Shown: piece by piece, positions 34,923-39,885 of the stretch
How the letters are laid out: every line of letters starts with the position of its first letter
Numbering within the stretch: position 1 is the first letter of the stretch
From: Sphingomonas ginkgonis
Lineage (GTDB): Bacteria; Pseudomonadota; Alphaproteobacteria; Sphingomonadales; Sphingomonadaceae
NCBI RefSeq assembly: GCF_003970925.1
Contig: NZ_RWJF01000001.1
Coordinates: forward strand, 3,071,455 to 3,135,454
DNA: 64,000 bases
Reading direction: 5' to 3'
Translations under genes and position numbers: made by a program
Notes under the pieces: generated by a model
What the model was told of the DNA's origin: nothing
What the model saw: the letters and a program-made list of their open reading frames with translations, nothing else
The model's database searches: none

Positions 34923-35774
34923 TTAATTGCTTGTTCCGACGAGCCGTTCGGCGTGCCAGCGCAGATGGTCGGCCATGAAGGTCGAAATGAAGTAGTAGCT
35001 GTGATCATATCCGGGCTGCCGCCGCAGCTCGAGCCTGATCCCCGCTTCCGCACAGGCGCGCTCCAGCAGCTCGGGCCGCAGCTCCCGCTCGAGGAACGGG
35101 TCCGCCTCGCCGACGTCGACCAGCAGTTCGGGCACCCGCGCGCCGTCCTCGATCAGCGCCACCGCGTCGTGCCGCCGCCAGGCCGAGCGCTCCGGCCCGA
35201 GATAGCGGCCGAGCGCCTTCTCGCCCCATGGCACCTGCGAGGGGGCGACGATCGGGGCGAAGGCCGAGACCGAGCGGAACCACTCCGGATGGTTGAGCGC
35301 GATCGTCAGCGCGCCGTGCCCGCCCATCGAGTGGCCGGTGATCCCCTGCCGCGCCGGATCGACCGGGAACTCGGCCTCGACCAGCGCCGCCAGCTCCGCG
35401 GTGACATAGCTCCACATCCGGTAATTGGCCGCCCACGGCACTTCGGTCGCGTCGACGTAGAAGCCGGCGCCCAGCCCGAAGTCCCACGCGCCCTCCGGAT
35501 CGTCGGGGACGCCCTCCCCGCGCGGGCTGGTGTCCGGCGCGACGAGGACCAGCCCGTGCTCGGCGCAGGCGGCGCGATACTCGCCCTTCTCGGTGACGTT
35601 GGCGTGGGTGCAGGTCAGCCCTGACAGATACCACATCATCGGCAGCCGGCCGCCCTGCTCCGCCTGCGGGGGCAGGAAGACGGAGAAGACCATCTCCGTC
35701 TCCGTTGCCGTCGAGCGATGCTTGCAGACGAGCTGCCGCCCGCCGTGCGAGCGCACCTCGCTGACGATGTCCAT
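34923..35774 (-). CDS. fghA: S-formylglutathione hydrolase
   Basis: A 283-residue esterase-D family serine hydrolase that releases formate and glutathione from S-formylglutathione. The nucleophile is in G-H-S-M-G-G (about residue 149). D-T-S-P-R-G and the Y-L-S-G-L-T-C-T motif are typical. The C-terminal G-Y-D-H-S-Y-Y-F contains the catalytic histidine. It is the last gene of the minus-strand run adhC-VOC-fghA, two bases after the VOC stop, giving a complete glutathione-dependent formaldehyde oxidation route. Confidence 0.96.
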   Translation of the reverse strand: MDIVSEVRSHGGRQLVCKHRSTATETEMVFSVFLPPQAEQGGRLPMMWYLSGLTCTHANVTEKGEYRAACAEHGLVLVAPDTSPRGEGVPDDPEGAWDFGLGAGFYVDATEVPWAANYRMWSYVTAELAALVEAEFPVDPARQGITGHSMGGHGALTIALNHPEWFRSVSAFAPIVAPSQVPWGEKALGRYLGPERSAWRRHDAVALIEDGARVPELLVDVGEADPFLERELRPELLERACAEAGIRLELRRQPGYDHSYYFISTFMADHLRWHAERLVGTSN

Positions 35775-36173: not shown

Positions 36174-37286
<1,113 letters not shown>

Positions 37287-37354
37287 CTCTCTCTCTCCCG
37301 GGTCAGCGGCTTGGCCCCGAGCGCATAGCCTCGGCGGGGCGGATGGCAAGCGCC

Positions 37355-37813
37355 TCAGCGCGGCTCGACCCGAACCTCGGTGCGGACGCTGCTGGCGATG
37401 AAGCAGGCTTCGTGCGCGCGATGGTGCAGGTCGGTGATCTGATCGACCGAGGGCTCGTCGCCGCTCCATTCAAGGCGCGGGCGGAGCGTGACGAGGGTCA
37501 TCGCCATCCGACCCTGATCGTCCTCTGCCAGCGTGCCCTCCGCCTCGTCGACATAGCTTTCGACGACAAATCCGGCGCGGCGGGCGAAGTCGAGGAAGAA
37601 CAGCATGTGGCAGGAGGAAAGGGCGGCGACGAACGCCTCTTCCGGATCGACGGCGGCCGGGTCGGCAGTGCCCGGCGGGACATTGTCGGCGCTGGCGGAC
37701 GCGGGCACGACCGCCCCGCCATCGAAGGCCCAGGAATGGCCGCGGGAATAGCGGCCATCGGTGAAAGCGGTGCCGGAGCGGGACCAGCGGATCGTTGCGG
37801 TGTAGTGGCCCAT
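37355..37813 (-). CDS. OsmC family protein
   Basis: A 152-residue protein of the OsmC/Ohr superfamily, thiol peroxidases acting on organic hydroperoxides. The two reactive cysteines are in S-S-C-H-M-L-F (about residue 67) and H-E-A-C-F-I-A-S-S (about 136). The N-terminus [10 protein letters not shown] is typical of the OsmC-like rather than the Ohr subgroup. A GGAGGGG ribosome site precedes the ATG at 37813. It is 68 bases upstream of adhC on the same strand and just downstream (on its own strand) of a palindromic repeat. Confidence 0.9.
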
Positions 37814-37827
37814 CTCTATCCCCTCCG

Positions 37828-37912
37828 CGTCATGCTGAACTTGTTTCAGCACCCATCTTCCAACATGATCCGCCTGCTCGGCCATGGGTCCCGAAACAAG
37901 TTCGGGATGACG
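37828..37912. repeat. 85-bp palindromic element, copy 1
   Basis: Two 29-base arms (37828-37856 and 37884-37912) flank a 27-base spacer. The left arm reads CGTCATGCTGAACTTGTT and continues to CACCCAT; the right arm is its reverse complement at 25 of 29 positions. Each arm also contains its own six-base-pair mini-hairpin (GCTGAA/TTCAGC in the left, CCCGAA/TTCGGG in the right), and the four mismatches between arms are those that keep these mini-hairpins paired. It ends nine bases before the GIY-YIG start codon. Confidence 0.9.
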
Positions 37913-37921
37913 TGAGGTTCT

Positions 37922-38221
37922 ATGATCGAGCCCTGCACCTACATCCTTGCCAGCAAGCCCTACGGGACGATCTACATCGGCGTGACCGCCAACCTCGTCG
38001 CCCGGGTCTATCAGCACCGCATCAATCAGGTCCGCGGCTTCACGGCGAGGTACCGCGTCCATCATCTCGTCCGTTACGAGCAGTTCGAAACCATGCCCGA
38101 GGCGATTGCCCGAGAGAAGCAGCTGAAAAACTGGCACCGGCAATGGAAGATCAACCTGGTCGAGAGCGACAATCCGCAATGGTTGGACCTGGCGACGGGG
38201 CTCGGCCTGCCGCCGCTGTGA
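37922..38221 (+). CDS. Single-domain GIY-YIG nuclease family protein
   Basis: A 99-residue protein of the YhbQ/UPF0213-like GIY-YIG class. Signature elements are Tyr7 (C-T-Y-I-L), Tyr18-Ile19-Gly20 (G-T-I-Y-I-G-V-T), the catalytic arginine Arg28 and the metal-binding glutamate Glu65 in A-I-A-R-E-K-Q-L-K-N-W. All key residues are present, so it is probably catalytically competent. GAGG lies four bases before the ATG, immediately after the upstream palindrome. The gene fills the space between two copies of the same palindromic element (9 and 25 bases from them). It is oriented opposite to both neighbouring genes, as expected of an inserted cassette. Confidence 0.9.
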   Translation: MIEPCTYILASKPYGTIYIGVTANLVARVYQHRINQVRGFTARYRVHHLVRYEQFETMPEAIAREKQLKNWHRQWKINLVESDNPQWLDLATGLGLPPL

Positions 38222-38246
38222 CGGGCAGCGCCGATTCGCCACATCC

Positions 38247-38331
38247 CGTCATGCTGAACTTGTTTCAGCACCCATTCGGCAACCGCTGCGACCTTTTCGC
38301 AAATGGGTCCTTAAACAAGTTCAGGATGACG
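38247..38331. repeat. 85-bp palindromic element, copy 2
   Basis: Same architecture and orientation as copy 1: left arm 38247-38275 is identical to the left arm of copy 1 over 29 of 29 bases, right arm 38303-38331 is nearly so, and the spacer is again exactly 27 bases but with unrelated sequence. The right-arm mini-hairpin CCTTAA/TTCAGG carries one mismatch. It lies 27 bases beyond the pccB stop. Confidence 0.9.
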
Positions 38332-38358
38332 GCCGTCAGGGTGTCGACGCTCAAGCCG

Positions 38359-39885
<1,527 letters not shown>

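Follow-up and report, generated by a model that had tools for sequence, protein, structure and literature searches.

The comparisons described here suggest that the window, by which we mean the whole stretch of 64,000 nucleotides from Sphingomonas ginkgonis that was analysed, probably contains a REP-nuclease unit, in which a small GIY-YIG protein is encoded between copies of the CGTC-tagged REP that it would recognise. In this model, the 99-aa nuclease would use residues 67-78, at a helix-turn-helix junction, to read the CGTC-type REP hairpin cognate to it, probably in single-stranded form, it would nick at or near the hairpin, and the REP-bounded DNA, either the gene unit or bare dimers, would then be copied or moved. 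Binding and cutting of the hairpin, the action on a single strand, and cutting as the cause of movement are steps that we infer.

An earlier note on this DNA had described paired palindromes with identical 29-base left arms, 27-base spacers (given 29-nt arms) and a gap of 334 bases, and each of these features was confirmed by direct repeat analysis, in which the two 85-nt copies formed a direct repeat pair with 78% identity overall. The arms are complementary at 86% of positions in the first palindrome and at 90% over 31 nt in the second, the folding z-scores (calculated for DNA) are -5.1 and -9.3, respectively, and the window contains four arm sites (up to 3 mismatches) compared with none in 100 shuffles. 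Each palindrome consists of two 28-nt REP hairpins placed head to head, in the order CGTC-ATGCTGAA-CTTGT-TTCAGCAC-CCA, then the spacer, then the mirror copy. The note was also correct in that a single intact GIY-YIG gene, the only ORF between the palindromes, fills the interval and is opposite in orientation to both neighbouring genes (Table 1). The encoded protein matches the Pfam GIY-YIG family (PF01541) with an E-value of 3.9e-14, the domain spans residues 4-78, and no other Pfam family was matched at E ≤ 0.001. The gene is under purifying selection, with a dN/dS of 0.12-0.32 in comparisons to five relatives of the genus, for which synonymous sites are close to saturation. The relatives nearest to the window copy, where named, are from Sphingobium, Sphingomicrobium, and other Sphingomonadales. 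A gene for a class III alcohol/formaldehyde dehydrogenase (TIGR02818) is located close to the unit at 36174-37286 on the minus strand, and an ORF at 34923-35774, also on the minus strand, looks like an S-formylglutathione hydrolase gene, so that a putative formaldehyde-detoxification cluster adjoins the unit.

Table 1. Features of the putative REP-nuclease unit and its neighbours (positions in the window)
Feature	Positions	Strand	Remarks
First palindrome	37828..37912	+	Head-to-head dimer of CGTC-tagged REPs; class GAA5 (stem ..GAA, 5-nt loop, CCA tail); 27-nt spacer
REP hairpin of first dimer	37828..37855	+	CGTC tag; 8-bp stem with one mismatch; 5-nt loop; CCA tail
Mirror REP hairpin of first dimer	37885..37912	-	9 b before the ATG
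Single-domain GIY-YIG nuclease gene	37922..38221	+	99 aa; intact
Codons of residues 67-78 (Q67, N70, H72, Q74, N78)	38120..38155	+	Predicted end of helix 58-69, turn 70-72, start of helix 73-83; covary with REP class
Second palindrome	38247..38331	+	Head-to-head dimer; class GAA5; 27-nt spacer; right-hand arm slightly degenerate
OsmC-like neighbour gene	37355..37813	-	Syntenic marker for empty sites
Acyl-CoA carboxyltransferase subunit gene, neighbour	38359..39885	-	Adjoins OsmC without the unit in relatives

The association between the nuclease and the REPs was found far beyond the window. A scan of genome contigs with the three paralogs found first gave at least 565 confirmed loci, of which the best-scoring 80 were used, so that these represent the nearest relatives and not a random draw; according to record labels, they are mostly from Sphingomonadales, and also from Gamma- and Betaproteobacteria, Chlorobi, Chloroflexi, Bacteroidetes, and others. 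A strict motif (GTC, an 8-base stem starting with A with at most one mismatch, a loop of 3-6, and CC) was present within approximately 400 b of 70 of these 80 genes, on both sides in 46, and occurred 48 times in the 676,642 bases located more than 1 kb from the gene. The family sample comprises 149 genomes, 106 of which have a match, and the loci taken from them were the best-scoring ones plus further copies in multi-copy genomes. When duplicates were removed and only genes of at least 90 bits were counted (n=172, motif within 350 b), the strict motif was found on both sides of 102 genes and of none of 390 other ORFs in the same 12-kb loci, and on either side of 134 genes and 20 control ORFs. 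The case that the earlier note had set against its own reading, repeats placed at random relative to such nuclease genes, is thus not what these counts describe. A motif-free test, in which the two 200-b flanks of a gene were aligned locally with each other, gave a score of at least 16 for 149 of 171 genes and 5 of 390 controls, and this test was also passed by 34 of the 38 genes in which the strict motif was missing. Chance bracketing was rejected on the window shuffles (0/100), the control ORFs (0/390) and the motif-free test (5/390). By comparison across these loci, the gene and its REPs form a unit.

It could be argued that REPs gather around any short orphan intergenic gene and that the bracketing is coincidental, given that REPs are described as intergenic and often dimeric in passages of PMC3733652. 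We regard this as extremely improbable, because among control ORFs of 300-600 b, only 9 of 136 had a REP on either side and none of the 390 controls had one on both, and because coincidence leaves no place for the cognate classes, the preferred polarity and the residue covariation that are described below.

GIY-YIG proteins scoring below 60 bits behaved differently in the strict count, with the motif in 2 of 14, and 10 of 14 passed the motif-free test. Three of the 14 (L209, L210, and L237) are fragments of the main type with CGTC repeats flanking them. Of the other 11, seven lie between copies of another palindrome, either of the GTTCGTCCTGAGCCTGTCGAAGGAC or of the GTTCGTGTCGAGCGTAGTCGAGACAC type (L228, L229, L230, L231, L232, L233, and L236, the four without it being L211, L227, L234, and L235). 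These low-scoring genes, which belong to another subfamily, may hint at a second nuclease-repeat system.

After addition of the genus loci (n=221 genes, hairpins counted within 200 b), a hairpin was located upstream of 180 genes, downstream of 175 and on both sides of 161, and 27 of the 221 had no hairpin on either side within this distance. The innermost pair of hairpins is head to head in 123 of the 161 genes flanked on two sides, the gene thus replacing the spacer of a dimer, and such head-to-head units have a median length of 398 b (5th-95th percentile, 369-434). A gene between two complete dimers, as in the window, was matched by motif in four loci (L097, L113, L128, and L243), and the window locus itself does not appear in this count because its last arm is degenerate. 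Of the 504-bp cassette that the earlier note had proposed, comparable to REP/RAYT units and with a GIY-YIG enzyme, the unit as such is therefore supported, but its two-dimer layout is rare, and most relatives are units of approximately 400 bp with the gene inside one dimer.

In the window's own genome (3.21 Mb), 28 arm sites with up to 3 mismatches were found, the window's four included, compared with none for the reversed pattern, and 20 of the 28 form 10 opposite pairs 61-68 b apart, which is a modest copy number. The genome contains four window-type GIY-YIG genes according to a profile search (C1:3109376, 2752134, 69960, and 2620181), the fourth of which (L322, C1:2620181-2620453) was missed by the Pfam search, and all four have REP hairpins on both sides. 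The REP classes differ among these paralogs: GAA5 for the window gene, CGC4 for L001, GGG5 on both sides of L322, and, for L004, GGG5 on one side with the other side called GGC4. A 654-codon frame of UvrC size in the same genome has no REPs.

The hairpins could also be terminators or regulators of the nuclease gene and not targets of recombination. They fold strongly and are close to the gene: in head-to-head units, they precede the matched domain by 30-54 b and follow it by 15-51 b (10th-90th percentile). We nevertheless consider this reading very improbable, since no terminator or promoter match was found in 37700-38460, since, in the window's genome, 24 of 28 arm sites are away from the gene, as is the majority of the 200 dRS3 copies that an N. 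gonorrhoeae record contains, and since a class-specific match to the protein is not expected of terminators. An assignment of the locus to an Rfam family was likewise rejected: the one match in 37000-39300, to mir-767, had an E-value of 0.71 and was below the gathering score.

In relatives, the unit is missing from the corresponding slot. OsmC is present in 36 of the 71 genus genomes searched, and the carboxyltransferase end is kept upstream of OsmC in 27 of the 29 loci returned from relatives. No nuclease match (tblastn, E ≤ 1e-5) was found in the window's slot in any of these 27; orthologous loci in which the gene is always present without the repeats, which the earlier note had named as speaking against it, were thus not found. 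The spacing between OsmC and the carboxyltransferase gene is -4 to 22 bp in 10 of the 27 relatives versus 545 bp in the window's genome, and because the neighbours nearly touch in these 10, the repeats are absent there too. The remaining 17 have different sequence (100-1124 bp) in the slot, which includes a REP-like hairpin in L268 and a weak hairpin of this kind in L285. Two genomes, G201 and G166, have a close homolog (73% and 69%, respectively) with the same REPs in another slot, just after OsmC, and in G166 the window's slot measures 7 bp; in a third, G150 (L282), this second slot is occupied by a bare REP dimer, which is of a different class. This shows presence and absence of the unit at the window's site within the genus, through gain or loss. 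For two units of another genome, G071, no empty sites could be matched in its genus, which is represented by only two genomes with broken synteny.

Across the genus, 40 of 71 genomes gave a match, which reached at least 90 bits in 31. Arms and gene co-occur only moderately if all nuclease classes are pooled: in the 53 good genomes, the Fisher p is 0.012-0.016, and in all 71 genomes the p value is 0.014 at a threshold of two arms and 0.11 at six. When class is considered, the median number of GAA5 arms is 14.5 in the 6 genomes with a GAA5-class nuclease versus 1 in 25 others (p 0.0013), with class taken from the fetched loci only and 8 of the 25 having no class call. One genome (G158) has 21 arms and no GAA5 nuclease among the fetched loci, and arms are also found without the gene in G205 (9) and in the incomplete genomes G194 (16) and G213 (13).

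Units were also found duplicated within genomes. Among 25 pairs of loci that are at least 85% identical over the gene, 21 are within one genome, and 17 same-genome pairs are 93.8-99.8% identical over 381-493 b, which covers the gene and the flanking REPs. When the loci were aligned, five loci of G071 (L164, L183, L191, L200, and L206) shared the unit and the sequence further out was unrelated, and the same was found for three loci of G021 (L167, L225, and L226) and for L209/L210; L207/L208 and the G135 loci were judged from BLAST limits only. The pair L185/L193 has some further repeat sequence in common downstream. The shared piece runs slightly past the REPs, which blurs the exact ends of the unit, and no target-site duplication could be made out at the aligned duplicated units. 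Some near-identical pairs carry common damage, a frame break in L225/L226 and an internal deletion in L209/L210. Since damaged copies were also duplicated, movement need not rely on a copy's own gene, and the broken copies were perhaps duplicated in trans. From these alignments, units occur at new sites as discrete pieces. Short outer sequences are common to the sphingomonad units L164, L183, L191, L206, L225, and L226 (GCGGACAT... before CGTC and ...TGTCCGC or similar after GACG), and these may represent a preferred target or an older repeat.

Alternatively, the nuclease may recognise REPs without moving them, with a role in DNA uptake or in recombination control, and the spread of the units would then be due to homologous recombination, gene conversion, or an unrelated transposase. 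The duplication of broken units, the persistence of REPs without the gene and the established knowledge that a GIY-YIG nuclease alone has no strand-transfer chemistry are consistent with this alternative. However, the unrelated flanks of the aligned duplicated units are not readily explained by homologous recombination, although the short shared outer sequences leave some room for it, and the gene is located inside or between REPs in several bacterial phyla, according to record labels. We therefore consider this alternative unlikely, though much less so than coincidence or termination, and favour a unit that is mobilised through its nuclease.

In 13 genomes with at least 3 REP-flanked paralogs (100 pairs), protein identity and REP similarity were correlated within genomes (r=0.731; 0 of 5000 permutations), and the correlation was weaker (r=0.291 over 81 pairs; 67 of 5000 permutations) when pairs of 80% identity or more were excluded. 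The two REPs of one gene had a similarity of 0.89 (n=51), versus 0.59 (n=174) when compared with REPs of a different paralog within that genome. In a tree comprising 219 proteins, 163 of which had one clear REP class (the other 56 were left unlabelled because the sides disagreed or a hairpin was not found), REP class required 40 changes, versus at least 85 in each of 200 shuffles, on a tree built from 96 columns in which 114 of 216 forks are open. By these comparisons, nuclease type and REP type are inherited together.

The residues that may read the REP appear to be localised. Columns 70, 72, 78, and 67 of the alignment were most informative on REP class, and the same four remained on top after pairs were matched for identity elsewhere. 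Pair matching makes the outside columns equal by construction, a point that is answered by a sliding-segment control, in which the held-out segment 64-84 had an excess of 0.124 and segments without residues 67-72 had 0.008-0.053, while 200 label shuffles for segment 62-82 reached at most 0.015. For example, 26 of the 28 proteins listed for CGC4 have K at position 70, 15 of 16 AGC4 proteins have A there, and 51 of 62 GAA5 proteins have H at position 72. In the AlphaFold2 model of the window protein (mean pLDDT 94.6), residues 67-78 form the end of one helix, a turn and the start of the next (Table 1), and the residues that covary with REP class are thus predicted to sit at a helix-turn-helix junction.

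When REP class was predicted by a vote among proteins of other genomes, residues 67, 70, 72, 74, and 78 were compared with all residues outside 64-84. With no identity limit, the class was correct for 124 of 155 proteins with the five residues and 110 with the outside residues, and as closer relatives were barred these numbers became 111 versus 79 (below 70% identity), 98 versus 9 (below 60%) and 55 versus 2 (below 55%), followed by 28 versus 0 of 136 below 50%; one reason why the outside residues drop below chance is that close kin sharing the class are excluded from the vote. Five random outside residues gave approximately 15 of 155 below 60% identity. Since the five residues were chosen on the data that were scored, the independent cases are the later records L370, L373, and L374 only, and the class lead is weak for L374 (3 of 7 neighbours). 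Recognition of its own REP by the nuclease, which the earlier note had proposed for the palindromes, is thus supported by cognate pairing and residue covariation, and these residues constitute a candidate protein-DNA recognition code that may be readable from sequence.

Homologs in plasmid records provided further cases. A tblastn search returned 33 such records, including two of N. gonorrhoeae of chromosome size, and 5 of the 33 were examined; NZ_CP119140.1, NZ_CP119142.1, and NZ_AP026896.1 are N. gonorrhoeae or Aeromonas entries of chromosome size that are probably mislabelled as plasmids. The homolog in the two N. gonorrhoeae records, which we take to be the Ssn nuclease whose target is the NTS, is 55-57% identical to the window protein (55% over 90% of the length). 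Within 400 b of one copy, on both sides, are eight CGTC hairpins of the dRS3 type, and the self-complementary dRS3 pattern ATTCCC-N8-GGGAAT occurs 200 times in the record, with none for the control. This homolog has K70 and N72, the residues commonest in CGC4 proteins, and the five-residue vote was 6 of 7 for CGC4. In PMC3733652, the Neisseria repeat CGTC-1 is equated with dRS3. A copy on a Sphingobium plasmid has GGG5 on both sides and a vote of 4 of 7 for GGG5, and in Aeromonas, a copy is flanked on one side by a CGC4 dimer and has a weak CGC4 vote (3 of 7). No CGTC hairpin was found within 400 b of the homologs of S. meliloti pSymB and R. tumorigenes, which are possibly a branch freed from its repeat; both of these rhizobial homologs (L371 and L372) carry a P as residue 72. 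The idea that the unit resides in viruses was rejected, as none of 38 viral contigs with the exact 21-base arm (L033-L070) holds the gene in the DNA fetched.

The features of the window locus overlap with those of several known systems. CGTC REPs, as defined in the passages available from Di Nocera et al. (2013, PMC3733652), have a CGTC tag, an 8-9-bp stem starting with AT, a loop of 4-5 nt and a CCA-like tail; they occur in several bacterial phyla, in many copies per genome and mostly as head-to-head dimers. The window repeats agree with this description in the tag, the 8-bp stem beginning with AT, the 5-nt loop and the CCA tail, in their alphaproteobacterial host, and in forming two head-to-head dimers with dispersed copies elsewhere in the genome. 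In the same passages, CGTC REPs are reported without a dedicated transposase (Table 1 of PMC3733652 lists them as not associated with transposase genes), whereas here they systematically bracket a gene, which encodes a nuclease and not a transposase; the term GIY-YIG does not occur in the text of PMC3733652 that was available.

Units of RAYTs and their REPs (REPINs, TnpA-REP) are alike in having a small enzyme gene bracketed by matching palindromes, dispersed copies without the gene, and several enzyme-repeat pairs per genome. However, RAYTs are HUH/Y1 transposases with GTAG-tagged REPs, while the window has a GIY-YIG nuclease with CGTC-tagged REPs, and membership of the RAYT group was rejected on the tag and on the lack of an HUH Y1 transposase in the Pfam and fold searches; the RAYT side of this comparison rests on passages of PMC3733652 and on general knowledge.

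The top fold matches of the protein were domains of UPF0213, Slx1, and UvrC, all weaker than E 0.001, and the closest solved relatives by sequence profile were of the UPF0213/YhbQ type (PDB 1zg2, E 2.1e-6; 1ywl, E 1.7e-4). Proteins of this type are 21-23% identical to the window protein and no linked repeats were seen with them. GIY-YIG homing endonucleases are commonly encoded in introns, inteins or phages, and their DNA-binding domain is a separate, C-terminal one. They resemble the unit in that a nuclease gene spreads itself, but the window gene is intergenic, hairpin-bounded and only 99 aa long; membership was not supported, in view also of the extent of the domain over the protein and the result for the viral contigs.

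The nearest published kind is probably the Ssn family. Reportedly described in Nat Commun in 2025, it is said to consist of GIY-YIG nucleases that cut single strands at specific sites, with NTS/dRS3-like targets in Neisseria, where the role is said to be in DNA uptake or recombination control, and to include many homologs with specificities for sequences of their own. Measured against this description, the window protein is a single-domain GIY-YIG protein homologous to the Neisseria protein, and it has, as far as comparison goes, a cognate repeat beside the gene and across the genome. The likeness therefore extends from the small protein to the CGTC-type dRS3 repeats amid which the Neisseria homolog is found, but the REP class of the window is GAA5 and not the dRS3-like CGC4 of Neisseria, and the host is different. 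The locus thus joins a kind that has reportedly been published, and possible novelty lies in the link with the CGTC REP superfamily, in the mobile unit of approximately 400 bp, and in the localised residue code. Among titles and the beginnings of abstracts, we found no paper that ties GIY-YIG proteins to CGTC REPs and no report of such a mobile unit or residue code; in the portions of the texts available, "palindrom" does not occur in PMC1564403, on the GIY-YIG superfamily, and "GIY" does not occur in PMC6006769.

Whether these observations extend to CGTC REPs in general is, in our judgement, an evenly balanced question: such REPs may have dedicated enzymes, GIY-YIG proteins of approximately 95 aa, so that a REP pair and its gene (approximately 400 bp) would be a self-spreading element among the smallest known, with its target written in four or five residues of the helix-turn-helix junction, and the dimers without a gene would be miniature derivatives moved in trans. 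The nuclease might then be what drives a large group of repeats in bacteria for which the lack of a driver has been reported. Owing to the pairing, the question of an enzyme for CGTC REPs can be tested with a single small protein and a short hairpin, and the pairing further suggests a family of sequence-specific nucleases whose targets would be predictable from their flanks.
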